A DNA stretch of 21,558 bases from a virus, in the IMG/VR virus record IMGVR_UViG_3300042402_007160, positions 1 to 21,558 of that record; one strand, written 5' to 3'. Under the pieces are notes generated by a model, which saw only the letters and a program-made list of their open reading frames with translations, ran no database searches and was not told where the DNA came from. Made by a program: the position numbers and the translations under genes. Positions within the stretch are counted from its first letter, which is position 1. Every line of letters starts with the position of its first letter. Below are positions 128 to 21,507 of the stretch, in pieces.

Positions 128-1339
128 CTATATTGGCTTTACATGCCCCGATCGGTCTCCTTGTCCAACAAACTCAAGGTAAGAAATCCTTGTCCCAGAT
201 TCAATGTTATTAACTGCATGTGCCCCAAGGAAACCTGATGGATAAATGATGAGATTCCCCTTTACTGGAGCTATTTCTACATTCGGATGTTTAAAAACCA
301 ACTCTCCGCCAGTGCATCTATCGGACAAGATTAGCGATATCGACAATACGTTGAACACTGGATTTTCATTTTCTCCCGCCCCTCCTATAGCGTTGTCATG
401 ATGCATACCCATTCCCGAGCCTTCAGGGTACTCAGCAATATGAGCATCACTTCTCCAGCGCAGACAGTCAACTATTTCCGGGAAAATTCCTTTATATGCG
501 TTTAAGGACTTACCTATAGCTGTCTCTATTTCTGAATGAAACTTAACTTCATCGTCGGTAGCCTCACTAGGTAGTAAATTGAGGAATCTCCTAGGAGCAT
601 TTTCTATTTGGTCTGGCGTAAACCTGTATCCTCCGCGATTAACATAAAAACCATCATCGTCGATGTAGTAATCACTTGGCTCTGTCAATTTACGACGCTC
701 CATGTACCTGTCTACAAACGCATCCCCCATGTCTGCCATTACGTTGTGGAACTCCACAACCCCATACCCGTAATTAGTGAATGGCGCACAGTCTGATCTG
801 TCCGATATCTCTCGAGATCTCTTTATTTCCTTGGCAGATTCTTTTTCTGATACCAAACATTCAAATATCGCTCCAGTGAAACAGTCGGATACGGTCAACG
901 CGTCGAAGTTGTCTTCCCCGTCGCAGGACAAATACATTGTCCTTTCTGCATCGGGATTCGGCTCATGAGGGTATGGCCACCCGTATATGGATGCCTCAAC
1001 GTATCTGACGCCACCATTTTTCAGTGTTGAAGCAAGATGTTTTTCGGATGACGGATCACCAACATGATTTGCGTCAACGTAAATTCCATTAAATCCATAA
1101 TCAACAATCATTTTTGCATTTGGAAAAACCCCGGCGCCCATGCAGATTGAAACGATTACGTCAACTTCCTTACACATTTGCTCAACGGTGACCAAATCTT
1201 TGATGGCCCAGCTATTAGCGCGACCAGCTGTTTCTTGCGACCTATTGGAAGAAGCCCAAAATACCTCATGGCCATTTCTTAGCCCTGCGACAGCTAGTGA
1301 TAAACCCATTTTCCCTGGGTTTAGTATTCCTATTTTCAT
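128..1339 (-). CDS. Fusion of NAD(P)-binding Rossmann domain and 2OG-Fe(II) oxygenase
   Basis: This 403-aa protein joins two enzyme folds. Residues 1 to about 155 look like the NAD-binding domain of the 6-phosphogluconate/3-hydroxyisobutyrate dehydrogenase family: GILNPGKMG glycine loop at 3-12, VDANHVGDPSSEKHLASTL at 88-106 and VEASIYGWPYP at 114-124. The helical catalytic domain that normally follows in that family is absent. Residues about 290-391 are a prolyl-hydroxylase-like jelly roll: H313-x-D315 in GMHHDN, GGELVF at 344-349, distal H374 in LGAHAV and R384 in GTRISYLEF as the 2OG-binding residue. All iron ligands are present. Residues 160-290 are unassigned. The start ATG overlaps the stop of the preceding gene as TAATG, with AAGGAAAAA in front, so the two are translationally coupled. 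Substrate is unknown; a two-step redox reaction on one substrate is possible but inferred. Confidence 0.85.
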   Translation of the reverse strand: MKIGILNPGKMGLSLAVAGLRNGHEVFWASSNRSQETAGRANSWAIKDLVTVEQMCKEVDVIVSICMGAGVFPNAKMIVDYGFNGIYVDANHVGDPSSEKHLASTLKNGGVRYVEASIYGWPYPHEPNPDAERTMYLSCDGEDNFDALTVSDCFTGAIFECLVSEKESAKEIKRSREISDRSDCAPFTNYGYGVVEFHNVMADMGDAFVDRYMERRKLTEPSDYYIDDDGFYVNRGGYRFTPDQIENAPRRFLNLLPSEATDDEVKFHSEIETAIGKSLNAYKGIFPEIVDCLRWRSDAHIAEYPEGSGMGMHHDNAIGGAGENENPVFNVLSISLILSDRCTGGELVFKHPNVEIAPVKGNLIIYPSGFLGAHAVNNIESGTRISYLEFVGQGDRSGHVKPI

Positions 1340-2148
1340 TATTTTTCCTTAGCTCTGTAGCCACTTGGCATATATATATTTGAAGAAATTCTTGCTGCCT
1401 GTGGCTGACTAATTGGGTCTACAACATTCTCCAACACGGAAGGGTTAGGCGTTCCCTGACAGTACCACCCAAGATACGAATACCTCGAACCGGAAATAAT
1501 GGGCTGAACCTCATGTGCCGCCACATAGTTTGACGGAAATAAAATGATTGTTCCTTTTTTTGGCTTTACTGTTATGTCTAGATAATTAAAATAATGAAGG
1601 CCGCCAGTAAAGTTTGTCCCATCCACCTCGTCTTCACTGTCTACGCAGTCATTCAGATAAGCAACAACAGAGACAACATTTCGAGTGGCTAACTGATCTT
1701 TAGGGTGAGGTTTGCCGTATTCGTATTCCGTCTGAATATCGGCATGTAGTCCTAAAAAAGATCCAGGCGGGTAGGCGACTATGTGTCCACGAATTCTCCA
1801 CCATATGCACTTTCCAGCTAATGGAAATTTTTCCAAATAGTCCTGAAGGCAATCGTCTTTTGCATTCTCTATGTAGTCAATTGTTTCTTGTACTCTCGGA
1901 ACAGAGCTTTGGTGAATCAGACTTCCTCTCCATGGCATACATTCCAAAGAGTCTCTCTTGAAGAAGTAATTACTTTTATTTATGTATCCATCTTCACCGG
2001 TTATTGGATCAATTCCTGGAGTGTACATCGATTCGCGTTCTGCCGTTAGCGTTTCATGACAGAAGCTGCGCACCCATTCCCAGTCGAGGCTAAATGCATC
2101 TTCGTAAAGTACTACCCCGCCCCCTAGATGCTTACCTATCGGATTCAT
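1339..2148 (-). CDS. 2OG-Fe(II) oxygenase, prolyl-4-hydroxylase-like
   Basis: This 269-aa protein belongs to the 2-oxoglutarate/Fe(II) dioxygenases, which couple decarboxylation of 2-oxoglutarate to hydroxylation of a substrate. The iron triad is visible: H135 and D137 in GLHAD, and H212 in AAHEV. R222 in SGSRYSYLGWY should bind 2-oxoglutarate. TGGLHYFNY at 181-189 matches the usual GGE-type strand. The N-terminus (GKHLGGGVVLYEDAF) resembles the starts of the oxygenases at 4433 and 5142, which suggests paralogues. I chose ATG at 2148 over a TTG at 2157. The gene overlaps the preceding one by 17 bases, and its stop overlaps the next ATG as TAATG. Substrate unknown. Confidence 0.85.
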   Translation of the reverse strand: MNPIGKHLGGGVVLYEDAFSLDWEWVRSFCHETLTAERESMYTPGIDPITGEDGYINKSNYFFKRDSLECMPWRGSLIHQSSVPRVQETIDYIENAKDDCLQDYLEKFPLAGKCIWWRIRGHIVAYPPGSFLGLHADIQTEYEYGKPHPKDQLATRNVVSVVAYLNDCVDSEDEVDGTNFTGGLHYFNYLDITVKPKKGTIILFPSNYVAAHEVQPIISGSRYSYLGWYCQGTPNPSVLENVVDPISQPQAARISSNIYMPSGYRAKEK

Positions 2149-3709
2149 GCTCGCCAAGTTCTATCATGTATTGCATATAGTCAATTACTGCTTCAATTAA
2201 TTTTTTTCTTTCATCATTCACCGAAATATGATTAAAACAACCGTAAACAGTATCTACTGCAAATTGAACTAAAAAATCAAAAGGAGGAGGGCCCCCGTTA
2301 AACTGCTCATATTCAAAAAAAGACAAGTTGTGCCAATCCCATGGTCTAAATTTTAGATTTCTTTGGTGCGGAAACCAGCACGGATAGTGCCAGGCGTGGC
2401 CAGCATGTCTCATATCGGGATGAAGCTCCACCAATGTACCTATAAGTTCCACCGGGCATGGGCGACCGTCTTCGTAAGGTTCTTTTCTAAACAAATCATC
2501 ACTGTTTGAAAATGCTCGTTCGAGATCGCCATTTTTGGTAAATAAAAACTTTTGGCCAATTAGGGGTTCATTTAATAAATAGTGATTTGAAAATCTATAC
2601 ATTGAGTCGTATTTTTTATTTTCATCTCTTAGCGGCTCAACTCCGACAACATTAAAATCACTATTACCTACTAACTTTTGAAATTCCAAAACATCATCCG
2701 GGATATTGCCATCGTAACAATAAACAAACATTGTAACTTTTTGAAACAAATCGGAATACTCCGGAATGGCGTAAATGCCTTTTGTGAAGACCAAAGGAAT
2801 ATGATCCGGATTTGGCCCAGTAGTTTCATCTTTCGCTACACCCTCTTTTCTCCACGTGTCGCCAAAATCATCACTAACGATACTTTTGTGTTCTTCATTG
2901 AAAAAAGGTTTTTCATTACCTACTTCACAACGGGTAAATATTCTTTGATCATGCTCCCACCCTGGTGAAAAGGAATGCAAAACTGATCTGTTATCCCAAA
3001 TTACAACATCTCCCTGGTTCCATGACCAGCTGTATCTCAACTCAGGAGAAAGCAATTGATTCTGCATGTATCTATTGAGCCTTTGGAACCACTCCGGATT
3101 TGTTCCATCGGCCATGCGCATGTCGTGTCCTGACCAAAGTAACATTGTTTCTCCGGTTACTGGGTGAGTACGTAAAGCTGGATGCGCTCCGGACCCCCCT
3201 GGACCATTTCTTGTCAGACCAGTTTCGTTAATAAACTCTGTTGTTTTCAGCAATTCTTTTATGTCTTCGGGGCAATCTCTATAAGCATTTACGAGACTAT
3301 AAAAATGGGTTTGCCCAAAATTCGGAGAGCAGGTGAATGTGTCCATCCTCAGGGCAGTATATGAAGGGATAAGCTCAAAAAATGGATTATCCATATGCCA
3401 TTGAGAATTGATGAACCACTCAACCTCTTCTGTCGTAGTGTTCTGATTTCCTGCATGTGTCTGATCGAACAAAAACCCTGGGCGTAATTCTTCCGGTTTA
3501 TTACCTCCCCTGTATATTCTCCGCATTATTTCTGAAAACTCTTCATCGGATGGGTTTAGCCCTATGAACCCGATCATTTTGTTTCTGACAAGTATCTCAG
3601 CAAAATAATCTGCATCTTCTATGACCTGCATGGGAGCAAGTCCGCGCATCTTAAAACCAAGGTTGCCAAGCCTTAACCCAGCGGCAATCCCTCCTTTTAT
3701 ATTTTTCAT
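2132..3709 (-). CDS. TauD/TfdA-type dioxygenase with a large unknown C-terminal domain
   Basis: The first ~265 of 525 residues form a TauD/TfdA-family 2OG-Fe(II) oxygenase. H105 and D107 sit in NSQWHMDNPFF. ALRTHPVTGETML is the conserved middle block (179-190). The C-terminal block GDVVIWDNRSVLH places distal H245, with R256 and R260 at the same spacing as the 2OG- and substrate-binding arginines of E. coli TauD (R266, R270). The catalytic set is therefore complete. Known TauD proteins are about 280-300 aa; here about 240 further residues follow that I cannot assign. They are rich in aromatic residues and His (HAGHAWHYPCWFPH near 435-448) and may be a binding domain. The start overlaps the DUF6065 stop by four bases (ATGA). 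Unlike its neighbours this enzyme class usually acts on small molecules such as sulfonates, amino acids or phosphonates; the substrate here is unknown. Confidence 0.82.
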   Translation of the reverse strand: MKNIKGGIAAGLRLGNLGFKMRGLAPMQVIEDADYFAEILVRNKMIGFIGLNPSDEEFSEIMRRIYRGGNKPEELRPGFLFDQTHAGNQNTTTEEVEWFINSQWHMDNPFFELIPSYTALRMDTFTCSPNFGQTHFYSLVNAYRDCPEDIKELLKTTEFINETGLTRNGPGGSGAHPALRTHPVTGETMLLWSGHDMRMADGTNPEWFQRLNRYMQNQLLSPELRYSWSWNQGDVVIWDNRSVLHSFSPGWEHDQRIFTRCEVGNEKPFFNEEHKSIVSDDFGDTWRKEGVAKDETTGPNPDHIPLVFTKGIYAIPEYSDLFQKVTMFVYCYDGNIPDDVLEFQKLVGNSDFNVVGVEPLRDENKKYDSMYRFSNHYLLNEPLIGQKFLFTKNGDLERAFSNSDDLFRKEPYEDGRPCPVELIGTLVELHPDMRHAGHAWHYPCWFPHQRNLKFRPWDWHNLSFFEYEQFNGGPPPFDFLVQFAVDTVYGCFNHISVNDERKKLIEAVIDYMQYMIELGEHESDR

Positions 3710-4431
3710 AGAATTGGTTCGTCCAATTTCATATGGCCGTCATGGCGTGGTCCTATTTGATTACCATTTTCATCAAGGCCAGTGCGGATCCCGCCCATCC
3801 ACGTCCAGGGTTCTTCTCTGAGTTTCTTCATTTTTGCTTCTCCGTAGGCAGCTCTTGAATTCATTAAGTTTGGCTTATCCCAGTAATTTTCTACTGAAAA
3901 TTTAACGGACGGCATTGTGTCAACGTTGTAAAACTGAAAAAACATAAACGGCATTCCTTTTGGAAAAATGACAGGCTTTCCGATTGTTGTAATTTTCCAG
4001 TTCATATTGAATTCGTCTGGCCACCAATCACTTGGAATATTTGCAGTAAGTGGGACAGCTCCATCAACAAAATAATTTGGAGCTCCCGACACCCAAGTGT
4101 GAACTCCTGGTGGAGTACTGATAGTCCAGCCTGTAGTGAATGACATTATCCCCACTATGCTTGGCATAACGATAGCTTTTTCGTAGGTCTCTCCATCGAT
4201 GCTAAATGTTGCCATTTCGCCGGAGAGCACCCGTGGAACAGAGAGCCCACCGTCCCACTGCAAAACAACTTCCTCTTGCAGGATCATTTCCCATCCAGCA
4301 GTATTTGCCTCAGTCAACGGCAAGCACTTGTAGGCATGTTTATTATACGTATCGTCCATCCAGTCGCGACGGACTTGAGATTGCCTAATTAGCGGTGGAT
4401 TCTGATGAGTGCGAGTTAATTTTATATCCAC
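3706..4431 (-). CDS. DUF6065 family protein
   Basis: The 241-aa product matches my memory of the DUF6065 family: DWMDDTYNKHAYKCLPLT near the start, ANTAGWEM, then FTTGWTISTPPGVHTWVSG, NWKITTIGKPVIFPKG and a FMFFQFY strand. Pro, Trp and Gly are frequent and no signal peptide or membrane segment is visible. Function of the family is not known to me; it has been seen beside oxygenase and peptide-modification genes, so a role in recognising or processing an oxygenase substrate is only a guess. The start is GTG at 4431, one base after the preceding stop (TAA-A-GTG), and the stop overlaps the TauD-like start. It is thus embedded within the oxygenase operon and is the only member of that block that is not itself an oxygenase. 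Confidence 0.75.
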   Translation of the reverse strand: MDIKLTRTHQNPPLIRQSQVRRDWMDDTYNKHAYKCLPLTEANTAGWEMILQEEVVLQWDGGLSVPRVLSGEMATFSIDGETYEKAIVMPSIVGIMSFTTGWTISTPPGVHTWVSGAPNYFVDGAVPLTANIPSDWWPDEFNMNWKITTIGKPVIFPKGMPFMFFQFYNVDTMPSVKFSVENYWDKPNLMNSRAAYGEAKMKKLREEPWTWMGGIRTGLDENGNQIGPRHDGHMKLDEPIL

Positions 4432-4432
4432 T

Positions 4433-5140
4433 TTAACCCCATTTTACAGACGAAACCTGTTTATTCTCTACTGCGGGCAACTCATTTTTTGATGAGCTGA
4501 CATTTTCTCCGTATCCGCTCGATTTATGGTTGCGGTCATTGTAGTCATACATGGTCACAACTGAATACTTTGTCCCTTTCGACACGGGCAAAGATGAGTG
4601 AGCATAAATGAAGTCAGATGGATGCATAATTAAGTCACCTTTTTCTGGGGTGAACTTTATATCCTGATAAGGCATCAGATATTCGCCACCTTCGTAGTCA
4701 TCGTTTATGTATCCGATAGTAGATACAGCACAGCTATAGGAGAAGCCAGAATCAGCATGAACGGAAAAGTGCTGCCCTTCGTTGTATTTTACAAAATTCG
4801 TTGCTTCTTCATATTCGAGACTCAAATTGTACAACCCGGAATAATGAGAAACGCATTCCCTTACCCCCATAATTACTTCTTTGTAAATCAACTCAAGATC
4901 TGCGAATTGCTCACTTTCGATCGGCATATCACCTTGACGTAGCTTGAAGTCAAAGCAATCTCTATAGTCCTTCATTATTGATTGATCGCCGACCATCGCT
5001 TGATTCCACTTGTAACGGGCATTATCGCTGTGCTCTAATATTTTTTCAAGACGCTCTACAAATTGAGAATTTTGTGGCCAAACATTTTTATAAAGAACAA
5101 TTCCTGCGTTGGCGTGACCAATGTATCCTGCTATATCCAT
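4433..5140 (-). CDS. 2OG-Fe(II) oxygenase with Lys as 2OG-binding residue
   Basis: The 235-aa protein has a full prolyl-hydroxylase-like core: H128 and D130 in FSVHADSG, GGEYLMPYQDIKF at 151-163, KGDLIMHPS, distal H181 in YAHSSLPV and K191 in GTKYSVVTMY. Most bacterial relatives have Arg at the last position; Lys there is typical of collagen-type prolyl 4-hydroxylases, where it binds the C5 carboxylate of 2-oxoglutarate. This makes peptidyl proline or a similar residue a plausible target, though that is inference. The ~35 C-terminal residues are polar and probably disordered. It begins with ATG after a strong GGGAG Shine-Dalgarno sequence, one base past the previous stop. Confidence 0.85.
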   Translation of the reverse strand: MDIAGYIGHANAGIVLYKNVWPQNSQFVERLEKILEHSDNARYKWNQAMVGDQSIMKDYRDCFDFKLRQGDMPIESEQFADLELIYKEVIMGVRECVSHYSGLYNLSLEYEEATNFVKYNEGQHFSVHADSGFSYSCAVSTIGYINDDYEGGEYLMPYQDIKFTPEKGDLIMHPSDFIYAHSSLPVSKGTKYSVVTMYDYNDRNHKSSGYGENVSSSKNELPAVENKQVSSVKWG

Positions 5141-5153
5141 TTTAATTTCTCCC
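5141..5153 (-). promoter_or_regulatory. Strong ribosome binding site shared with a neighbour gene
   Basis: On the minus strand the leader reads GGGAGAAATTAAA directly before the ATG at 5140. Nearly the same leader, GGAGAAAATTAAA, precedes the oxygenase gene starting at 6637. It decides the start at 5140 and suggests both leaders derive from one ancestral gene copy or are tuned for strong translation. Confidence 0.7.
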
Positions 5154-5768
5154 TACTTTTGTGATTGTATAAAAAGATGGCGTTGTCCATCTAACGCCTG
5201 ATTGTATTTCTCGGACCCCATGGAGGTAATTAACATCTCCTGGGTGGGCGACCGCAATGCCAGCAGAAATCGGTATTTCGAAATTATACTCCGGGTAATA
5301 TATCTGCCCACCAACAAAATCTTCATTCCAATAAATGATTGAATTTAGATCATAGGTTGGGAATGGGTTTGGGTCTCCGTTGTTTAATTGCTTATCAGCG
5401 TGAGGAGACTGCGAGTTTCCGGGAAGCCAACGTATCAATACTGGGGGCCTACACGAAACTTCAACATTGTATTTTCCGGAAATAGCATCTGCCATTTTGA
5501 GAATATATTTATTTATGATAGCAAAAATATCGGGGGCAATTCTCTGTAGAATATCGCCGCTGCACATTCTGTCCCGCCAGTATGACGAATCGTATATGCA
5601 TATCCCATCTTCGTTGAATTCATCATCTTTTCCATTTTCCCATTGATCTATGGTAGGGAAAAAATTATTCATTGTCTCTAAATCTTGTTTTTCTATAAAT
5701 TCTTTAATAATTAATATATTATTTAGAGTTTTCCCAAAATGTCCGTAGCCGACTAGTGACTGCTCCAT
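5142..5768 (-). CDS. 2OG-Fe(II) oxygenase
   Basis: With the ATG at 5768 the protein is 208 aa. It carries H123 and D125 in QSPHADKQ, GGQIYYPEYNFEIP at 153-166, distal H183 in NYLHGVREI and R193 in SGVRWTTPSFY, so all iron and 2OG ligands are present. The loop after the HxD motif (LNNGDPNPFPTYDLN) is longer than in the neighbours and may shape substrate choice. The frame is open back to a TTG at 5810, and another ATG lies at 5792. I prefer 5768 because an AGGA sequence lies about 10 bases upstream and because the GYGHFGKTLNNILII segment then aligns with the N-termini of the paralogues at 2148 and 5140. Substrate unknown. Confidence 0.8.
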   Translation of the reverse strand: MEQSLVGYGHFGKTLNNILIIKEFIEKQDLETMNNFFPTIDQWENGKDDEFNEDGICIYDSSYWRDRMCSGDILQRIAPDIFAIINKYILKMADAISGKYNVEVSCRPPVLIRWLPGNSQSPHADKQLNNGDPNPFPTYDLNSIIYWNEDFVGGQIYYPEYNFEIPISAGIAVAHPGDVNYLHGVREIQSGVRWTTPSFYTITKVGRN

Positions 5769-5854
5769 GTCTGACGTATCCTGGTGTTTCATACTGCATG
5801 ATGTTATCAAACCACCAGCGGAGGCGCTCCCTGTTCACGATAAAGTTGAATGTA

Positions 5855-6637
5855 TTAAAAATCTTCCGTAGATGATACTGGGGGCAAGAATCGTGGATTA
5901 ATTTTGTTGATCGACTCCTCCGGGAGTAGCCGCCAAATCTTTTCCGGATTAGCAACCCGCAACCACCAGTCTGGATATATTTCATTAACAAGAGTCAAGG
6001 CCACCGACCTTGCGCTGACCCAAAAAGATGTCATAGTCAGACGCTCGCCACTTATTAATTTAGTGACCCCATGACGATAAAGATGGCTTGCGGGAAAAAT
6101 AACCGCCGACCCAGCCTTGACCTTCAGCCTAGTACGTTGCTTGTCAAAGAATATTTCCCCGCCCTCATACTCGTCCGTTAGATAAACTACTGCGCCGACA
6201 TCATTTAAGTGTTCTGAAACTCCAACAGGTGGAGGTTCGTGACCGCGTTTCTCGAGTATCAACTCGCCGTCAGATTTGCCGCTGTCGTTATGCATTCCAA
6301 GAGAGTCACCAATCATCCATCTATTGAAAGACATATTTAGTGGAAGAAGAAAAAGCTGTCCAAAAGATTTTTCAATTTCTATTAATAATCTTTCTTTTAT
6401 AAGTCTATCTGCGATGATGAGGGACGCATCTGCGGAACCAGCGAGAGTGTAGTGCTGCCTCGAGTCATTATCTTCCCTGCCGGGGTGAACGACCCAAGCG
6501 CTCTTGTTGAGAAGCCGATCCACCAGATCTATGCGTTCACTCTCCGATAATATGTTTTCTATTACGTACATCGGTGGAATAGGAAGATTATTGAACTGAC
6601 TTATGTCTATATCTGGAATATTGTTAAACTCGGTCAT
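5855..6637 (-). CDS. 2OG-Fe(II) oxygenase
   Basis: This 260-aa protein has H116 and D118 in LGMHNDSG, GGEIFFDKQRTRLKVKAG at 159-176, distal H189 in YRHGVTKL and R199 in GERLTMTSFW. It therefore looks catalytically intact. It is the first oxygenase gene met by a polymerase reading leftward and the most divergent: its N-terminus lacks the GxxxxGxVLY start seen in three others, and about 50 extra residues follow the core (WWLRVANPEKIWRLLPEE). The region upstream (6638-6729) is non-coding and holds a TGGAG ribosome site directly before the ATG. Substrate unknown. Confidence 0.83.
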   Translation of the reverse strand: MTEFNNIPDIDISQFNNLPIPPMYVIENILSESERIDLVDRLLNKSAWVVHPGREDNDSRQHYTLAGSADASLIIADRLIKERLLIEIEKSFGQLFLLPLNMSFNRWMIGDSLGMHNDSGKSDGELILEKRGHEPPPVGVSEHLNDVGAVVYLTDEYEGGEIFFDKQRTRLKVKAGSAVIFPASHLYRHGVTKLISGERLTMTSFWVSARSVALTLVNEIYPDWWLRVANPEKIWRLLPEESINKINPRFLPPVSSTEDF

Positions 6638-6651
6638 TTTAATTTTCTCCA
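6638..6651 (-). promoter_or_regulatory. Ribosome binding site of the first oxygenase gene
   Basis: The minus strand reads TGGAGAAAATTAAA immediately before the ATG at 6637. It matches the leader of the gene starting at 5140 almost base for base. The remainder of the 6638-6729 gap is AT-rich with no convincing promoter or small ORF. Confidence 0.65.
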
Positions 6652-6729
6652 GAGCGTAATGATAACTTAATTTGACTATCTATCCATAAACACTTTGTCG
6701 ATGCGGAACGCTTACCGTAATACGCTGAT

Positions 6730-7812
6730 TTAAAGTGATCGAAGTAAATCGTTGGTCACTTCTACGTTAGTAAAAAACTCAGCAAAGTGTATATGGTCAT
6801 GAACGCCGGGATGCCCAAGGTCGCTACCTATGTCCCATAACTCATTTTGTTCATCGGACTGAGGTTCATGCCTGCAAAAAAGTTCATTATCAAGGCCGAA
6901 TTGCTCGAATGGCCGTGCGCCGTGTTGGCGAAAATCCCGAATCCACTGGTATGTCTCTCTTGCCCTTGATCCTGTGCTTACAATATATCCATCTCTGCCC
7001 CTAGGTAGCTGATCCTTGTAGCATTCGTAGTTCAGGTTGCGGAATACCTCCTGGCCTCCCCCTTGCCACGTACTGAACACAAACTCTATATCGGCAAGTT
7101 TTAAGCCAGCCACAAGTGCGTCAAGTAACAGAAAATTTTGCCATGCTGCTGTTTCCGCAGCCAATTCGTAGGAACGGCCGTTCAGGTCGGTAATTTTGTA
7201 TGTCACATATTCGTTTCCTGGTGACCACATCTTGTACTCCCCTTCGGAGAACGGGATATCCCATGGACTTAAACCAATACTTCCGTCAATGTTGGAAACT
7301 GGCCCAAAGTATCGATACATTTCTGGAAATAGACCATAGACAATTTTTGGTCGACTTTCCTTCTTAATGTTACTTAGAAGAAACAGTAAATGAGACGCAC
7401 TGTATGACGTTGCCGCGCCAGGCATCCCCGCATTAAGAACCTTCATTCCGGTGGATTTTTTAATAATATTTGGCCATGCAAACTTATTGGGTACGCCACT
7501 TCCGTATGTAAAAGAACACCCTATCGCAATTGCATCATGGGAGCCATTCTGGACTTCCAAAATAGGGTCAATGTGTTCCGAGTGTTCACGCAGTCCAGCC
7601 TCATCTCTTTTATCCCAAAATTCTTTACTTGGCGTATTTCTCTTATAGAAAGACCGATGCCGTGGAAGGGCAGCTAATGACTCCTGGTAACCACCAGATG
7701 GCAGGGGGTGTACACGAAGTGTGGGTGGCTGCGGATGCTCGTCTTGCCCGAGCACATAACGACCCTTAATTTCTGGTTTGTCCGCTATGTTTGCTGCAGG
7801 ATTATTTATCAT
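6730..7812 (-). CDS. SGNH/GDSL-type hydrolase-like protein
   Basis: The 360-aa product shows the blocks of SGNH hydrolases, which cleave esters, often acetyl groups on sugars. Block I is IGCSFTYGSGV (97-107) with likely nucleophile S100. Block II glycine is in LNAGMPGAA (126-134). Block V is D331-LG-H334-PGVHDHIHF, giving the catalytic Asp and His. The block III GxND motif is not evident; GLFPEMYRYFG (160-170) occupies the expected region, so the oxyanion Asn may be missing or moved. The first ~90 residues are an unassigned, proline-rich extension and no signal peptide is seen. The ATG at 7812 has only a weak ribosome site. Located between tail genes and oxygenases, it might be a virion deacetylase that trims host surface glycans, or a modifier of the phage's own glycans; both are inference. 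Confidence 0.72.
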   Translation of the reverse strand: MINNPAANIADKPEIKGRYVLGQDEHPQPPTLRVHPLPSGGYQESLAALPRHRSFYKRNTPSKEFWDKRDEAGLREHSEHIDPILEVQNGSHDAIAIGCSFTYGSGVPNKFAWPNIIKKSTGMKVLNAGMPGAATSYSASHLLFLLSNIKKESRPKIVYGLFPEMYRYFGPVSNIDGSIGLSPWDIPFSEGEYKMWSPGNEYVTYKITDLNGRSYELAAETAAWQNFLLLDALVAGLKLADIEFVFSTWQGGGQEVFRNLNYECYKDQLPRGRDGYIVSTGSRARETYQWIRDFRQHGARPFEQFGLDNELFCRHEPQSDEQNELWDIGSDLGHPGVHDHIHFAEFFTNVEVTNDLLRSL

Positions 7813-7824
7813 AGGTCATCATAC

Positions 7825-7847
7825 TAACATTATTAAATTTAATGTTA
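7825..7847. other. AT-rich inverted repeat in intergenic gap
   Basis: TAACATTA (7825-7832) and TAATGTTA (7840-7847) form a perfect 8-bp inverted repeat around a 7-base TTAAATT loop. It sits in the short gap between the 45-aa gene and the SGNH gene. It has no GC-rich stem or T-tract, so it is not a classical terminator; it could be a protein-binding site or an RNA-processing hairpin. Confidence 0.4.
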
Positions 7848-7857
7848 TGCACTGAAT

Positions 7858-7995
7858 TTAATAGATAAAATCGTTAAACTCATCTTGATTGTCGCCAGTA
7901 CGTTTGCGTCTATATTTTTTTATCTGCCTCATACGGATACTTCCACGAATATAAACTTTAAACTTAAATAAAAGAATGCTAAACGGTTCTCTCAT
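7858..7995 (-). CDS. Small basic protein of 45 aa, unidentified
   Basis: An ATG overlaps the stop of the peroxidase-like gene as TAATG and opens a 45-codon frame ending in TAA at 7858. The protein begins MREPFSILLFKFKVYIRG, contains a strongly basic centre (RQIKKYRRKRTGD) and ends in acidic-aromatic EFNDFIY. Start-stop overlaps of the same kind are used by at least three confident genes in this operon, which supports it being translated. An internal Met at residue 22, preceded by no clear ribosome site, would give a 24-aa form. No family is recognised; the basic patch could bind nucleic acid or a membrane surface. It fills most of an otherwise 180-base gap. Confidence 0.5.
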   Translation of the reverse strand: MREPFSILLFKFKVYIRGSIRMRQIKKYRRKRTGDNQDEFNDFIY

Positions 7996-8912
7996 TAGTG
8001 CGACATGTTTAAGTACGCGTCAATATCTTTAGAAATGATATCAAGTGAAAGATCTATGCCGTAGCGTTGAGTTGGCGTTGGCCATGGAACGCCTTCCATG
8101 GGATGCGTTTTAGGTTTATGGTCTCGTTTGCCATTCTCAAGGTAATGCTCCTCAAGCCAAGGAAACATGTTATTGCTTGAATCTCTTTCTCCGAGCAAAA
8201 ATCCATTGGAGTATCTCTTAACTCGACGACCGGTCCTGTCAATTAAAAACTTTTCAAAGTTTCCTCGCAATGGGGGAAAGCCTATTTTGCCGGAAGGAAT
8301 TATGTTTCTTTCACTGGACCAAGACACTTCCTCTAGATGATATGGAACTCCATTTTCCTGAGTATCAGCTGCATATGCCCCCGTTAAGTATGACCAAAGC
8401 GGATGCTGTTCTTGCACTTTTTCTTTACCTGGAACATAATCAGCGTTATATTTATGTTTGTCGTGTCGTCCGTTTGTTAATTCGGAAAACTGATATGTTA
8501 CCCCAAAGTTATCACGGGCGTATTTTTCCGAGACTTGACCTGGGGTGATTTCCAAATTGTTTTCTTCAATATATTTATTTATTCCTTCTTGAAATTCTGG
8601 ATATCCATGACAAACGAAGTCATCAACCACAATTGCAATTATTTCAAAGTCTTCAACTTTTCGATAACGCTGATTTAACTCTTCGATTATTGAGTGTTGA
8701 GGTATATTCCCGCACCCAGCAGCAACATTAAATAACAGGGTTACTTTACCTTTTTGTTCAGAAAGAATAGATTTCTTTTGACCGTCGGCAGAGCGAATTT
8801 CAACGTCGTAGACGGAGACAGGGAGAAGGTGCTCGTCAGTTGAGCTTGAATGCGCTTCAAACCACTCTCTGCCCGTTTCTTCTAAATTAACTTCTGGGAT
8901 TGTCTGCGACAT
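7995..8912 (-). CDS. Glutathione-peroxidase-like thioredoxin-fold protein
   Basis: The 305-aa protein keeps the skeleton of glutathione peroxidases: VYDVEIRSADGQ at 34-45, KGKVTLLFNVAAGCG at 54-68 with the candidate peroxidatic Cys67, EELNQRYRKVEDFEIIAIVV, FGVTYQF at 136-142, HPLWSYL at 170-176 and GNFEKFLIDRTGRRVKRY at 217-234. N218 matches the catalytic Asn. The family's Gln (in NQFGGQ) and the Trp before Asn are not conserved (VVDDFV and RGN here), so peroxidase activity is uncertain. Usual members are about 160-180 aa; this one has an N-terminal extension, an insertion at about 177-210 and a C-terminal tail of about 60 residues. It could be a thiol redox or structural adaptation within the virion region, or protect against peroxide during infection. 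Confidence 0.75.
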   Translation of the reverse strand: MSQTIPEVNLEETGREWFEAHSSSTDEHLLPVSVYDVEIRSADGQKKSILSEQKGKVTLLFNVAAGCGNIPQHSIIEELNQRYRKVEDFEIIAIVVDDFVCHGYPEFQEGINKYIEENNLEITPGQVSEKYARDNFGVTYQFSELTNGRHDKHKYNADYVPGKEKVQEQHPLWSYLTGAYAADTQENGVPYHLEEVSWSSERNIIPSGKIGFPPLRGNFEKFLIDRTGRRVKRYSNGFLLGERDSSNNMFPWLEEHYLENGKRDHKPKTHPMEGVPWPTPTQRYGIDLSLDIISKDIDAYLNMSH

Positions 8913-8933: not shown

Positions 8934-9398
8934 TCACTTAAAAGATGGTGGGAAATGCGGTGGAAAATGAGGTGGAAAATGAGGCGGGAAAAACGGTGGG
9001 AAGAACGGTGGAAAATGAGGTGGAAAATGAGGCGGGAAAAACGGTGGGAAGAACGGAGGGAAGAACGGTGGGAAGAACGGAGGGAAAAATGGCGGGAAAT
9101 GAGGAGGGAAAAATGGAGGGAAAAATGGCGGAAAATACGGAGTGGAAACTACGTAGTCAATCACTTCACCGAGTGGCATTACCACTCCTGCGGTTTCGGT
9201 CTGTGATGTAACTTTATTTAAGTTTCCAGTACCAACAGAACCAGTTGGGTCATTTATTGGAGTGGTTGCAGAAGCAGAACCAATAAAACCTGCATTTGTT
9301 ACGCTGGTTTGAGCTGAAGCGGAACTAAGACCAATAAGGTTTGGAACGGACCCTTTTGGGGCATCTGGTTCTTTTTCTGAGTTCGCTCCGCCAGCCAT
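8934..9398 (-). CDS. PASTA-domain protein with (F/H)FPP repeat tail
   Basis: Of 154 residues, about 17-86 form one PASTA domain: VPNLIGLSSASAQTSVTNAG, then TSQTETAGVVMPLGEVIDYV. PASTA domains bind cell-wall or other surface glycans in Ser/Thr kinases and penicillin-binding proteins and occur in phage tail genes. From about residue 88 the chain is sixteen consecutive tetrapeptides [F/H/Y]FPP, ending SFK. In reading order the variable residue is Y F F H F F F F F H H F F H H H, so His is concentrated toward the C-terminus. Such a stretch is likely an extended, polyproline-like, aromatic-sticky tail; the His residues could bind metal or respond to pH. The start follows AAAGGAATTTAAA, 11 bases after the large fibre gene. 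The role is probably an attached virion adhesin. Some of its prolines are candidates for hydroxylation by the oxygenases encoded downstream (inference). Confidence 0.8.
   Translation of the reverse strand: MAGGANSEKEPDAPKGSVPNLIGLSSASAQTSVTNAGFIGSASATTPINDPTGSVGTGNLNKVTSQTETAGVVMPLGEVIDYVVSTPYFPPFFPPFFPPHFPPFFPPFFPPFFPPFFPPFFPPHFPPHFPPFFPPFFPPHFPPHFPPHFPPSFK
8947..9138 (-). repeat. Sixteen tandem 12-bp units coding (F/H)FPP
   Basis: The plus strand reads 16 in-frame units of 12 bp, for example GGTGGAAAATGA, GGCGGGAAAAAC and GGTGGGAAGAAC. A 48-bp block of four units at 8959-9006 is repeated exactly at 9007-9054, which indicates recent tandem duplication. The purine/pyrimidine strand bias is extreme: nearly all pyrimidine on the coding strand. 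Copy number should be prone to slippage in steps of four residues without breaking the frame. Confidence 0.95.
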
Positions 9399-16617: not shown

Positions 16618-17715
16618 ATGAAAAAGCGTCAAAAACCATCCATAGGATTTCTAACCACGGATTGGTCTTGGGGAACGGACCCGCTTCAGATGAATGGGTG
16701 CGCTTGGTATAGATGTAAATTACCCGGTGATCAACTTGTCAAACGCGGCTGGAAGTGCGCTGTCGGGATGCCTGGGTGGAATGAAAAACATGGATTTGGG
16801 ATGCTCGCCGAAAACAATACGGCAGTCCATGGCTGGGACATTGTTGTTTTTAAATTGATAATGCATAAAGATGCGCTTGACAATATTCTAAAAGCTAAAG
16901 AAATGAAGCAAAAAATCGTAGTAGACATTGACGACTGGTTCGTTGGCCTAGAGAAGACAAATAGGGCTTACGATGCAACAGATCCCGAAAAAAACCCCGA
17001 CCAGAACAGGGCCATATACGAACAAATCATAATGGAAGCTTTTGCTGTAATCTGTTCTACTGAGTTTTTATATAATTATTATTCAAAAATAAGAAAAAAT
17101 GTATTCCTGGTTAGAAATGGCATAGATCTCGAGCGGTGGAGGGTAAAGCCGTCAGTGCGACCTCACAAAAAAGTACGCGTGGGTTGGGTGGGGGCCACTC
17201 CATGGAGGTCAAACGATCTGGAACAGCTTAGAAATTTTTTCCCTGATTTTATTAAAAAAAACAATTTGTTGTTTCATCATTCAGGGCACACAATAAACGC
17301 GCCAAAAGCCAATGAATTACTCGGAGTGCCAGACGAAGTAACAAGGCTTACTCCGCTTGTCCCAATCCTTTCATATCCTGGTTTGCTTTTGCCAATAGAT
17401 ATAGGAATCATCCCATTAAACAACATTCAATTCAACCACGCAAAATCTTTTATCAAAGGCCTTGAGTACGCAGCTGCTGGAGTGCCATTTGTAGCCTCGG
17501 CCCTCCCTGAATATGAGCTCCTAGCTTCGCAAGGAATAGGGAGAATTGCAAGAACCGATGCGGAATGGGAAGCAAACCTAACAGACCTACTGGATTATCG
17601 GCTTAGGCGTGACGAGATGATAGTAAACAGAGAAGTTCTAGAACAGTTTTCTATGTCAGCGAGGGCTCCTGAATGGGAAACAACAATGCGGGAAATATTA
17701 GAGATGGAAATGTAA
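16618..17715 (+). CDS. GT-B glycosyltransferase
   Basis: The 365-aa protein resembles GT4-type glycosyltransferases of the GT-B fold, which move a sugar from a nucleotide donor to an acceptor. Residues 1-175 would be the acceptor half, with KIVVDIDDWF at 99-108 and VFLVRNGIDLERW at 162-174, the usual hinge to the donor half. The donor half contains VRVGWVGATPW at 187-196, PIDIGIIPL at 259-267 and HAKSFIKGLEYAAAGVPFVA at 274-293. In the last motif K277-S278 and E283 correspond to the donor-binding region, though the classical EX7E motif is altered. No membrane segment is seen. It opens the rightward cassette, and the next gene follows after six bases. The acceptor may be a phage or host glycan. 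Confidence 0.82.
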   Translation: MKKRQKPSIGFLTTDWSWGTDPLQMNGCAWYRCKLPGDQLVKRGWKCAVGMPGWNEKHGFGMLAENNTAVHGWDIVVFKLIMHKDALDNILKAKEMKQKIVVDIDDWFVGLEKTNRAYDATDPEKNPDQNRAIYEQIIMEAFAVICSTEFLYNYYSKIRKNVFLVRNGIDLERWRVKPSVRPHKKVRVGWVGATPWRSNDLEQLRNFFPDFIKKNNLLFHHSGHTINAPKANELLGVPDEVTRLTPLVPILSYPGLLLPIDIGIIPLNNIQFNHAKSFIKGLEYAAAGVPFVASALPEYELLASQGIGRIARTDAEWEANLTDLLDYRLRRDEMIVNREVLEQFSMSARAPEWETTMREILEMEM

Positions 17716-17721
17716 ATAGAA

Positions 17722-18378
17722 GTGGATATCAATTTTTCTTTCTGCATCGTTACTGGATACCAGGACACTGCCCGCCTTGAGCAAATTATAGAAAATATAA
17801 TTTCTTTGTCAATTCCACATTATGAAATATTAATTATTGGTGGGGAAAGAAAAGATTTTAGTCATCAAAACGAAAAAGTAATTTTTTTAGATTTTGACGA
17901 ATCAGTAAAACCTTTATGGATAACTAAGAAAAAAAACATTCTGTCACGGGCTGCCAAGTATGAAAATTTAGTGATAATGCACGATTATCATGTTTTTAAC
18001 GATGATTGGTATGAAGAATTCACAAAGTTTGGAACCGACTGGGATGTGTGTTCCTGCCCTCAGTATCTTATAAATGGCGCAAGAAACCCAATGGACTGGT
18101 CGTTGTGGGATAAGCCGGGACACGGTAGGGCATGGAGTCTTGACTATGACGACTGGTCACAAACTCAATATATGTATATATCTGGTGGATTCTTTATTGT
18201 CAAAAAACACGTAATGCTAGAAGAGCCGCTTGACGAATCTCGTGGATGGAACGAAGCAGAGGATGTTGAGTGGTCACTTCGTATTAGAGACAAGTACGTA
18301 ATGAAGTGCAACAAAAACAGTATTGTTCGCCACAATAAGTGGCACAGACATGCGGGGATAAACCCAGATGAAAAATAA
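17722..18378 (+). CDS. GT-A (family 2-like) glycosyltransferase
   Basis: The 218-aa protein starts with GTG. FSFCIVTGYQDTARLEQIIE at 5-24 and YEILIIGGERKD fit the nucleotide-binding beta-alpha start of GT-A enzymes. NLVIMHDYHVFNDDWYEEF at 82-100 carries the acidic motif (HDYH in place of DxD) expected to hold the metal and sugar nucleotide. ISGGFFIVKK at 153-162 and GWNEAEDVEWSLRIRDK at 175-191 supply the acceptor region with the catalytic-base ED pair, and H204 could be a metal ligand. No transmembrane segment is present. It overlaps the start of the next gene by 11 bases. Sugar specificity cannot be read from the sequence. Confidence 0.78.
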   Translation: MDINFSFCIVTGYQDTARLEQIIENIISLSIPHYEILIIGGERKDFSHQNEKVIFLDFDESVKPLWITKKKNILSRAAKYENLVIMHDYHVFNDDWYEEFTKFGTDWDVCSCPQYLINGARNPMDWSLWDKPGHGRAWSLDYDDWSQTQYMYISGGFFIVKKHVMLEEPLDESRGWNEAEDVEWSLRIRDKYVMKCNKNSIVRHNKWHRHAGINPDEK

Positions 18379-19741
18379 TTTTCTTGTTATTTTCGACCTT
18401 GACGGTGTACTAATAGAGTCAAGAGATGTGCATTTTGATTCTTTGAATATTGCCCTGAGTAGGGTAGACCCAAAATACGTTATTTCACAAGAAGAACATC
18501 TTTCCAAATATGACGGCCTGGGAACAACAACGAAGCTAAGAATGCTTACCGAAGAGAAAGGACTTTCCGGTTCTTTTCATCAACAGATATGGGAAGATAA
18601 ACAAAAAGCAACCCTTACAATACTTTCTGGCTTTCCTAAAAACTATGTTGCTATAGACATAATGCAAACCCTCAAAGAAAAGGGGTGGAAAATTGCTGTT
18701 GCATCAAACGCGATAAGGGAAACCGTTATCACAGCGCTCGATGCAATCGGCGTACTAAAGTATGTCAGCTACATCATGAGCAATGAAGACGTCAGGAACC
18801 ATAAGCCACATCCGGAGATGTATTGGCAATGCATGGTTTCATCGGACGCAAGCCCTGCAAATACCATAATTATTGAAGATTCACATATAGGCAGGGAGGG
18901 TGCGCTAAGTTCTGGAGCAAACCTGCACGCAATCAAGAATGCTAGCGATTTGAATAAAGAGCGATTAATGCGCTTTGTTGAAGAAATAGAAAACAGGGGC
19001 AAGAAACCTGTTGCATGGAGAAATGAAAAAATGAACGTTTTGATACCGATGGCTGGCGCTGGCTCTAGATTTGCACAGGCTGGATATACATTTCCAAAAC
19101 CATTAATTGAAGTCAATGGGAAGCCAATGATTCAGGTGGTTGTTGAGAATCTTAATGTTGATGCTCACTTTATTTTCTTGGTTCAAAAAGAACATTATGA
19201 GAAATATAATCTCAAACAAGTTCTTGGATTAATTAAGCCAGGGTGCGACATTGTCCTAGTTGACGGGATGACAGAGGGCGCTGCTTGTACGACTCTACTT
19301 GCATCTGGCTTGATAGATAACGACGAGCCATTGCTTATGGCAAACTCCGACCAGATAGTTGATTGGGACAGCAATGAGTGCCTTTACGCATTTGGGGCAG
19401 AAGGTGTTGATGGTGGAATCCTTACGTTCAAGGCAACTCATCCGAAATGGTCTTATGCGAAGCTTGGCGATGACGGATTGGTTAGTGAGGTAGCAGAAAA
19501 AAATCCAATCTCAGATAATGCCACTGTTGGCATTTACTACTGGAAACACGGTTCAGATTATGTCAAATATGCAAACCAGATGATAGAAAAAAATATTAGA
19601 ACCAATAATGAGTTTTATGTTTGCCCAGTGTTCAATGAAGCAATAAACGACCAGAAAAAGATTCGAATTAAAGAAGTGCCAAAAATGTGGGGAATAGGGA
19701 CCCCAGAAGACCTCAACTATTACTTGGAGAACAATAAATGA
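18368..19741 (+). CDS. Bifunctional HAD phosphatase-nucleotidyltransferase fusion
   Basis: The 457-aa protein combines two enzymes. Residues 1 to about 205 are a HAD hydrolase of the beta-phosphoglucomutase-like type: D10 and D12 in IFDLDGVLIES, S113 in VASNA, K146 in NHKPHPEMYW and E170-D171 in IIIEDSHIG, with a helical cap between. Residues about 222-457 are a sugar-1-phosphate-type nucleotidyltransferase: MAGAGSRFAQAG at 228-239, FPKPLIEVNGKPMI at 242-255, EGAACTTLLAS at 303-313 and LLMANSDQIVDWD at 322-334. Both active sites look complete. Together they could make an activated sugar or polyol for the two upstream glycosyltransferases. The base (CTP, GTP, UTP or dTTP) cannot be fixed. The 3' end overlaps the methyltransferase start by four bases (ATGA). 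Confidence 0.85.
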   Translation: MKNNFLVIFDLDGVLIESRDVHFDSLNIALSRVDPKYVISQEEHLSKYDGLGTTTKLRMLTEEKGLSGSFHQQIWEDKQKATLTILSGFPKNYVAIDIMQTLKEKGWKIAVASNAIRETVITALDAIGVLKYVSYIMSNEDVRNHKPHPEMYWQCMVSSDASPANTIIIEDSHIGREGALSSGANLHAIKNASDLNKERLMRFVEEIENRGKKPVAWRNEKMNVLIPMAGAGSRFAQAGYTFPKPLIEVNGKPMIQVVVENLNVDAHFIFLVQKEHYEKYNLKQVLGLIKPGCDIVLVDGMTEGAACTTLLASGLIDNDEPLLMANSDQIVDWDSNECLYAFGAEGVDGGILTFKATHPKWSYAKLGDDGLVSEVAEKNPISDNATVGIYYWKHGSDYVKYANQMIEKNIRTNNEFYVCPVFNEAINDQKKIRIKEVPKMWGIGTPEDLNYYLENNK

Positions 19742-20445
19742 GCAAAGACAAAAAAGACTATCTAGATATGCAGAACTCGTACTACGACGGATATGCAAGT
19801 CAGTGGACCTTAAATTTTAGAGACCCAGTTGTTGGTTCATATGATGCGCACAATAACTGGAGCGACTACGATAACTATTTATTTAAAGATTTTGAAACAA
19901 ATGGACTTTTAGCACTCGAATACGGTTGTGGTCCTGGAAGAAATTTAGTTAAGTTTTCCACGAGGTTTCAGCGTATTGATGGCATTGACATATCAAGTGT
20001 AAATATTGAAAAAGCAAAAATAAATCTTGAGCATAATGGGATCCGTGATTCACTTCTATTCACGACATCCGGAGATAATCTTTCTCAAGTTGAGTCAGAA
20101 TCTTATGATGTTGTTTTTGCTGTTATATGCTTTCAACACATATGTGTTCACGAAATACGATTAGCAATACTTGCTGATATCCATAGAGTTCTTAAAACAG
20201 GGGGGCGGCTTTGCTTTCAAATGGGCTATGGTGGTAAGGGAGAAATTCCAACTGCCTCATATTACGACAACAATTACGATGCTGGCAGCACGAATGGGCA
20301 CGCTGATGTCAGTATAAAAGATGAATCTGAGTTGATTGACGATCTAACAAACGTGCTTGGATATAAAAACTACAGGTCTGACATTAGGCAAACTGGCCCT
20401 GGGGATAACCATAAAAACTGGATATGGGTACAGGTTGAAAAATGA
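19738..20445 (+). CDS. Class I SAM-dependent methyltransferase
   Basis: The 235-aa product has the SAM-binding loop LLALEYGCGPGRNLVKF at 57-73, an acidic residue D84 in DGIDISSVNIEKAK that would hold the ribose, an ESYDVVFAVICFQHI motif at 121-135 and VLKTGGRLCFQMGYG at 151-165. The fold is of the Methyltransf_11/25 type, which methylates small molecules, lipids or sugars. An extra stretch after 165 (ASYYDNNYDAGSTNGHADVS) may cover the active site. It overlaps genes on both sides by four bases and is thus translated with the cassette. The likely role is methylation of the sugar or polyol made here, but the substrate is not shown by the sequence. Confidence 0.8.
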   Translation: MSKDKKDYLDMQNSYYDGYASQWTLNFRDPVVGSYDAHNNWSDYDNYLFKDFETNGLLALEYGCGPGRNLVKFSTRFQRIDGIDISSVNIEKAKINLEHNGIRDSLLFTTSGDNLSQVESESYDVVFAVICFQHICVHEIRLAILADIHRVLKTGGRLCFQMGYGGKGEIPTASYYDNNYDAGSTNGHADVSIKDESELIDDLTNVLGYKNYRSDIRQTGPGDNHKNWIWVQVEK

Positions 20446-20900
20446 GATTTATATCGCACAGGGGTAACCTGACTGGAATTAACAGAGAATTAGAAAATTC
20501 ACCAGAATATGTGGTTGATGCAATTAAAAAAGGTTTTGATGTTGAAATAGACCTCAGGACGCACTTGGGCAAAATGTACCTTGGGCACGATGAGCCGCAG
20601 TATAAAATAGAAGATAAATGGCTGCAAATGTATTCGAGCAGCTTATGGATCCATTGTAAAGATTTTGAATCATTAGACCACTCTATGAATATGGGTTATC
20701 ATTGCTTCTTTCATAACATTGACGCATACACGATAACGAGTCGCAGTTTTGTTTGGGCTTACCCTGGCAGTCAAATTGCTTCAAGGCTTTGTATATCTGT
20801 TCTTCCTGAAAGGGCAGAAGGCTTGATCGGCCTAAAAGCACACGACTATTACGGCGTATGTTCTGATTTTGTACAGGAACTGGAAGCTGCTTATGAGTGA
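20442..20900 (+). CDS. Compact glycerophosphodiester phosphodiesterase-like protein
   Basis: The 152-aa protein keeps the active-site pattern of glycerophosphodiester phosphodiesterases (GDPD): H6-R7-G8 in ISHRGN, E18-N19 in RELENSPEYV, E35 and D37 in GFDVEIDLRT and H49 in YLGHDEPQY. A lysine in WIHCKDF (K73) may correspond to the family's later conserved Lys. Usual GDPD proteins are about 240 aa, so the second half of the TIM barrel appears shortened and substrate binding may differ. It sits between two methyltransferases and after the nucleotidyltransferase, which suggests work on a phosphodiester-linked polyol or sugar rather than lipid turnover (inference). No signal peptide is visible. 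The ATG overlaps the preceding stop as ATGA. Confidence 0.7.
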   Translation: MRFISHRGNLTGINRELENSPEYVVDAIKKGFDVEIDLRTHLGKMYLGHDEPQYKIEDKWLQMYSSSLWIHCKDFESLDHSMNMGYHCFFHNIDAYTITSRSFVWAYPGSQIASRLCISVLPERAEGLIGLKAHDYYGVCSDFVQELEAAYE

Positions 20901-21507
20901 ATTATCACTGCATGAGATTGGGTTAAAAAATTCTACGGACAAGTCCACCTATCACGAGTATATGGATTTTTATCAAAGATATTTAGATAGAAATAAAATA
21001 TTAAAATTTTTAGAAATAGGCGTCCAGGGTGGTTCCTCAATCAAGACATGGCGCGAATGGTTGAGGAGCGAATGCGTTATTGAAGGCTGGGACATAGAGC
21101 AATGCGAACCAATTAAAAATTGCGAATTAAAAATTGTTGACCAGGCTAATCGCCAAATGGTAATTGATTCCATTACTGGAGAATACGATGTGATTCTTGA
21201 CGATGGAGCCCATACGCCAAGATCTATGGAAACATCTTTTTCCGTTCTGTTTCCATATTGCAAAATTTACATAATTGAGGACCTGCATGCTTGGTGGCTT
21301 GGATACAGGGAAGGTGAGGAAAAGTCGACTTTTGAACTACTTAAACAAATTGAAGACGACGGGTGGCTTTCTACCTATGCCACAAATGAAGAATCAGAAT
21401 ACATCTCAAGAAATGCTCAATTATTAGAAGTGTATCATCGTGGTGAATTAAGCAACCCACTCTCTATGTCAGCAGTAATTCTAAATAAAAGGAAATCAAA
21501 TGATTAA
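20893..21507 (+). CDS. SAM methyltransferase of the sugar O-methyltransferase/CmcI-like type
   Basis: With ATG at 20893 the protein has 204 residues. Motif I is KFLEIGVQGGSSIKTWREW at 38-56, with an acidic D67 in EGWDIEQ. DVILDDGAHTPRSM at 99-112 and IYIIEDLHAWW at 125-135 give acidic residues (D103, D104, E129, D130) at the positions that bind the metal in CmcI/MycE-like sugar O-methyltransferases. The frame is open back to a TTG at 20869, but the ATG has a GGAAG ribosome site 8 bases upstream and overlaps the preceding stop by 8 bases, so I prefer it. It fits the cassette as a second methyl transfer step, probably on a sugar hydroxyl. Substrate not known. Confidence 0.75.
   Translation: MSELSLHEIGLKNSTDKSTYHEYMDFYQRYLDRNKILKFLEIGVQGGSSIKTWREWLRSECVIEGWDIEQCEPIKNCELKIVDQANRQMVIDSITGEYDVILDDGAHTPRSMETSFSVLFPYCKIYIIEDLHAWWLGYREGEEKSTFELLKQIEDDGWLSTYATNEESEYISRNAQLLEVYHRGELSNPLSMSAVILNKRKSND

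Follow-up and report, generated by a model that had tools for sequence, protein, structure and literature searches.

A conserved block of 2OG-Fe(II) oxygenases and DUF6065 in uncultured phages and its association with an aromatic-Phe-Pro-Pro tail repeat

In the virus record IMGVR_UViG_3300042402_007160 (21,558 bases; the whole stretch was analyzed and is called the window below), six 2-oxoglutarate (2OG)-Fe(II) oxygenase genes and a DUF6065 gene lie in one operon with the gene for a small tail-region protein, g10, which carries a C-terminal array of aromatic-Phe-Pro-Pro units. The core of this block (two 2OG genes followed by DUF6065) recurs across uncultured phages, and the block is no random cargo. 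In dozens of uncultured phages, repeat and oxygenases occur together, a pairing that does not extend to other tail repeats and that makes this repeat the probable target of chemical modification by the enzymes. We therefore favor, as the probable function, a dedicated post-translational modification system that hydroxylates the repeat array of the tail protein. The purpose of phage 2OG-Fe(II) oxygenases has been unclear since the first cyanophage genomes, and the present data connect a large class of these enzymes with a short tail peptide as a candidate target. If confirmed, the system would show that a phage structural protein is hydroxylated enzymatically, would amount to a new proline-rich biomaterial, and would offer one reason why many phages retain several oxygenases.

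Layout of the operon and its oxygenases

The minus strand encodes a single tail-end operon, which runs from the tail proteins g15 to g11 through g10, g09, g08, g07, g06, g05, g04, g03, and g02 to g01 and ends at position 128:

16515 to 9410, minus strand: g15 to g11, tail proteins
8934 to 9398, minus strand: g10, small tail-region protein of 154 aa with a PASTA-like N terminus and a C-terminal repeat (candidate substrate)
7995 to 8912, minus strand: g09, glutathione-peroxidase (GPx)/redoxin-like protein (Pfam GSHPx, 30.8 bits; 60 to 62% identity in three relatives)
6730 to 7812, minus strand: g08, SGNH-hydrolase-like protein, assigned by eye from a block-I-like GCSFTYGSG motif
5855 to 6637, minus strand: g07, prolyl-hydroxylase-like (P4H-like) 2OG-Fe(II) oxygenase (PF13640, 36.3 bits; ligands kept)
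5142 to 5810, minus strand: g06, P4H-like 2OG oxygenase, core gene (PHROG 2297 and AlphaFold model; no Pfam match)
4433 to 5140, minus strand: g05, P4H-like 2OG oxygenase with Lys as 2OG anchor, core gene (PF13640, 38.9 bits)
3706 to 4431, minus strand: g04, DUF6065 protein, core gene (PF19541, 137.9 bits; cut-off, 26.6)
2132 to 3709, minus strand: g03, TauD-like 2OG oxygenase with a fused C-terminal domain (PF02668, 98.1 bits at residues 31 to 261; cut-off, 27)
1339 to 2157, minus strand: g02, P4H-like 2OG oxygenase (PF13640, 46.2 bits; 79 to 82% identity in relatives)
128 to 1339, minus strand: g01, fusion of a Rossmann (6PGDH-like NAD-binding) domain and a P4H-like 2OG domain (PF13640, 36.3 bits at residues 300 to 387)

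The initial annotation had described five P4H-like 2OG-Fe(II) oxygenases, one TauD-like enzyme, and a DUF6065 gene in tight coupling, and this arrangement was confirmed at 128 to 6637, with intergenic gaps of 1, 1, -4, -26, and -1 bases from 5810 to 128. The true start of g06 is probably a later ATG, as in its relatives. The block had also been placed directly after the tail genes, which is incorrect: the SGNH-like and GPx-like genes (6730 to 8912) intervene, and the block is part of a larger cluster. The product of g08 found no family match in profile searches, and its copies in relatives share 23 to 31% identity.

All six oxygenases retain their iron ligands, as first noted. The ligand and 2OG-anchor sets of the five P4H-like proteins are, in order, H313/D315/H374/R384 (g01), H138/D140/H215/R225 (g02), H128/D130/H181/K191, H137/D139/H197/R207, and H116/D118/H189/R199; that of the TauD-like g03 is H105/D107/H245/R256. 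The 2OG anchor is Arg throughout, except for the Lys of g05. Since the alignments used (A9 and A10) had been preselected for the HxD...H motif, ligand conservation was recounted without that filter. The iron triad was intact in every full-length homologue examined, i.e., in 22/22, 47/47, 111/111 (g05), 104/104 (g06), and 9/9 distinct homologues of the five P4H-like families and in 22/22 of g03.

PF13640 (2OG-FeII_Oxy_3) was matched above its curated cut-off (27 bits) by four of the five P4H-like proteins, g06 being the exception. The AlphaFold model of g06 (pLDDT, 90.4) has a double-stranded beta-helix fold and matches prolyl hydroxylases; human prolyl 3-hydroxylase 1 (P3H1) is the nearest structure (VIA Z, 17.0), followed by a viral P4H (Z, 15.8) and PHD2. 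By profile, g06 matches P3H1 (E = 2.7e-7) and g05 the P4H of Bacillus anthracis (E = 8.7e-7), and the nearest solved sequences to the two profiles are B. anthracis P4H, P3H1, the collagen lysyl hydroxylase LH3, and the P4H of chlorella virus PBCV-1. This likeness is consistent with a putative hydroxylation of Pro-Pro peptides, a common fold being no proof of activity; similarity and the genomic linkage to a Pro-Pro repeat make the core enzymes candidate peptidyl-prolyl hydroxylases.

Two of the enzymes are composite. Residues 1 to 170 of g01 form a 6PGDH-like Rossmann domain (match to MTH1747, 1i36; E = 3.6e-6), and the two halves of g01 are separate genes in L018 and other phages. The C-terminal extension of g03 (~230 aa) shares homology with the tail half of a GPx-fused protein found in L039 and L042; homology to the GPx-like g09 of the window was considered and rejected. 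In other phages, the parts of g01 and g03 occur as separate genes adjoining each other. Small molecules are the usual substrates of TauD enzymes, and the nearest relatives of g03 are small-molecule dioxygenases. The TauD-like and Rossmann-fused enzymes could have other targets.

Conservation of the block in uncultured phages

A search with g03 recovered the same gene run in four other, independent contigs at 59 to 83% amino acid identity, a recurrence that argues against a chance gene order. With DUF6065 as the query, 131 viral loci were found, of which 80 were kept. Across these loci, g06, g05, and DUF6065 stay together and are followed by further 2OG genes, which in the window's own group are g03, g02, and g01. 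Synonymous change in the block is saturated and nonsynonymous change is low, indicating strong purifying selection. The block is thus not absent from close relatives, as it might have been if its genes were independent cargo.

Recent local duplication, which had been raised as a possible origin of the row, was rejected. The five P4H-like families (g01, g02, g05, g06, and g07) are each monophyletic on long stems, so that the block appears to be an old assembly rather than a fresh tandem duplication; tandem copies were seen only for g07 (in L011). Close relatives carry up to ten oxygenases within 16 kb. In four of them (L007, at 6442 to 7896; L008; L010; and L011), a Nol-like carbamoyltransferase gene lies between g07 and g06; it is absent from the window.

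Among 50,697 records of cultured phages, tblastn found no match for DUF6065 or g06. There was also none for g10, in a search that is blind to the array because the low-complexity filter masks the repeat. A contig of 155.9 kb (L097) with portal, sheath, and baseplate genes was recognized as that of a contractile-tail phage, a myovirus. A T4-like identity was dropped as a candidate: Gp23 had no match in 14 contigs, in a search run without a positive control.

The aromatic-Phe-Pro-Pro repeat and its linkage to oxygenases

The C-terminal array of g10 (8946 to 9137, minus strand) consists of 16 units of [F/H/Y]-F-P-P, giving 12 pattern matches where 0 were expected. No other protein of the window has more than three PP dipeptides; g10 has 16 of them. 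Its N-terminal PASTA match is weak (17.6 bits, below the Pfam cut-off). Among the 2,278 units of 162 distinct arrays, 98% have F, Y, H, or W at the first position. The Phe and Pro positions use all of their synonymous codons, so the repeat is kept at the protein level.

In the DUF6065 loci with flanking sequence, the module is accompanied by repeat proteins homologous or analogous to g10, also where gene orientation differs; homologues of g10 are encoded directly upstream of it. The N-terminal parts of these carriers vary (PASTA-like, fn3, and others), but the repeat persists, as does a final FK in most cases, and one of the fn3 carriers has a match to the central tail fiber J family. In the 155.9-kb contig, the single array is flanked by the tail genes on one side and by the module on the other.

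The linkage was assessed in the opposite direction by a scan of viral contigs in which the DNA of the repeat was the sole criterion, irrespective of the enzymes; loci followed by 5 kb or more of downstream sequence were regarded as testable (n = 48). A 2OG oxygenase was present within 6 kb in 43 of the 48, and three or more were present in 40. Clustering at 80% nucleotide identity left 29 positives among 32 repeat clusters. The corresponding counts were 3/79 for Mtd_N tail-fiber loci without the repeat, 3/52 for collagen-like (GPX)6 tail loci, and 0/35 for random stretches. Fisher tests gave P values of about 5e-20 for the comparison with the Mtd_N loci and about 7e-16 for that with the collagen-like loci. 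These values exaggerate independence, the phages being related, and the linkage may partly be inherited synteny.

Nine repeat contigs with no adjacent 2OG gene or with an incomplete flank were searched over their whole length, and six of them carry 1 to 11 PF13640 genes elsewhere. The other three (L129, L206, and L108; 9, 51, and 37 kb), which are possibly incomplete, contain no PF13640 gene. L129 has, in addition, a gene for a collagen-like GPA repeat protein. In the window, no Gly-X-Y stretch of the form (GXY)6 was found.

The TauD-like g03 occurred only in contigs with His-containing arrays (31/57, versus 0/129). A His-specific action of g03 was considered on this basis; it stays a hint, since the pattern follows phylogeny and some all-His arrays occur without g03.

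Possible functions of the block

The initial annotation had suggested a dedicated modification system, for instance for virion protein side chains or a small molecule. Such a system acting on a virion protein is the best-supported reading, now with g10 as the candidate substrate. In such a system, g05 and g06, together with DUF6065, would act on the (aromatic-Phe-Pro-Pro)n array of g10 before or during tail or virion assembly. The two core oxygenases would hydroxylate prolines of the array, which would thereby become a hydroxyproline-rich rod or adhesive, and the lineage-specific g07, g02, g03, and g01 (with the carbamoyltransferase in relatives) would extend the pattern by oxidizing or capping other positions. 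Any effect on the virion is a matter of speculation, with stiffness, adhesion, and protection as conceivable benefits. Extending this reading beyond the window, we tentatively propose a widespread, hitherto undescribed class of phage tail proteins in which (aromatic-F-P-P)n arrays are densely oxidized by a multienzyme 2OG machine with a DUF6065 partner, yielding a modified adhesive or protective appendage by a chemistry new to prokaryotic viruses.

Plant extensins, mussel foot proteins, and collagen are repetitive proline-rich substrates of P4H enzymes. These hydroxyproline-rich proteins, to which a putatively modified array would be analogous, differ from it in their unit, which here is aromatic-Phe-Pro-Pro, and in their setting, which here is a phage tail. 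B. anthracis P4H and P3H1 act on collagen-like or EF-Tu substrates, as partly given in PDB titles. These two peptidyl-prolyl hydroxylases (3itq and 8k0m), the nearest solved relatives of g05 and g06, share 12 to 15% identity with them and have no DUF6065 partner. The vCPH of PBCV-1 (5c5t), a virus-encoded enzyme of the P4H fold and the second-best structural family for g06, is a single enzyme of a eukaryotic virus, whereas several families share one tail operon with an X-F-P-P repeat here.

The claim that a row of such genes beside tail genes is exceptional in itself was too strong, as cyanophages are already known to have 2OG genes clustered near tail genes. S-SCSM1 has 24 2OG genes (PMC9602691), four of which lie in a row before tail-fiber genes, and S-SSM7 and S-MbCM7 likewise carry many PF13640 genes, partly in rows beside tail-fiber genes as in the window. 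No X-F-P-P array was present in the stretches of these three genomes that were read (80 kb of S-SCSM1 lie outside them), which sets the present system apart as a distinct set and indicates that such genes have other targets, too. The pairing of repeat and enzymes appears to be undescribed: no article in the open-access PMC literature, a set outside which most subscription journals fall, names DUF6065 or FPPFFPP.

Alternatively, the oxygenases might modify a surface glycan or another component of the virion or host envelope, the repeat protein merely belonging to the same host-interaction module. SGNH-like proteins often act on sugars, and close relatives insert such proteins as well as the Nol-like carbamoyltransferase; in the window, glycosyltransferase and nucleotidyltransferase-like genes lie on the plus strand. 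We consider this reading unlikely: the carbamoyltransferase is confined to one clade, the closest relatives of the core enzymes are peptidyl hydroxylases, and ordinary and collagen-like tail loci occur without the 2OG genes. The plus-strand genes (16618 to 21507) encode a TuaH-like glycosyltransferase, a HAD-nucleotidyltransferase fusion, methyltransferases, and further proteins of sugar type. None of these genes has a homologue in any of the 80+ module loci, and they are therefore not part of the system.

Production or tailoring of a small molecule released in infection (with TauD, 2OG oxygenases, dehydrogenase, peroxidase, and halogenase as the enzymes of the block) would fit the affinities of g03, the Rossmann-2OG fusion, and the presence, in one contig, of a tryptophan-halogenase-like gene close to the module. 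This function is quite improbable, however, as no scaffold-building enzyme (synthetase, cyclase, or ACP) was seen in the window, the block sits in a tail operon, and most repeat phages retain the P4H-like core but have no TauD and Rossmann parts. The halogenase-like gene lies a few kilobases after the module in the 155.9-kb contig (L097, 4413 to 5897); L206 and L129 encode a similar FAD-dependent protein, with a GGGTAGW motif, close to their arrays.

Cyanophage 2OG oxygenases have been read as metabolic genes (PMC3037559), and many marine phages carry several. We think it very unlikely that the present genes are likewise independent auxiliary metabolic genes altering the 2-oxoglutarate or nitrogen status of the host, given their conserved order, their distinct and anciently diverged families, and their strong link to one tail repeat as opposed to other tail loci. 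DNA hypermodification by TET/JBP-like oxygenases is scarcely credible: carbamoyltransferases do occur in some phage DNA modification pathways, but the Tet_JBP (PF12851) match of g07 (17.6 bits) falls far below the cut-off of 34.9 bits, the same stretch fits PF13640, and the gene lies in a tail operon.

DUF6065 is also found in bacteria, with a match in 19 of 299 Pseudomonadota genomes. A role as a bacterial 2OG partner was rejected, the bacterial copies standing alone within about 10 kb (L350 to L355, without oxygenases or repeats). The AlphaFold model of g04 (pLDDT, 85.9) suggests a dUTPase-like beta fold (Foldseek E = 1.1e-4); the superposition with dUTPase, a comparison of folds only, aligned about 120 residues with a VIA Z of about 10.9, an rmsd of 5 Å, and 10 to 18% identity.
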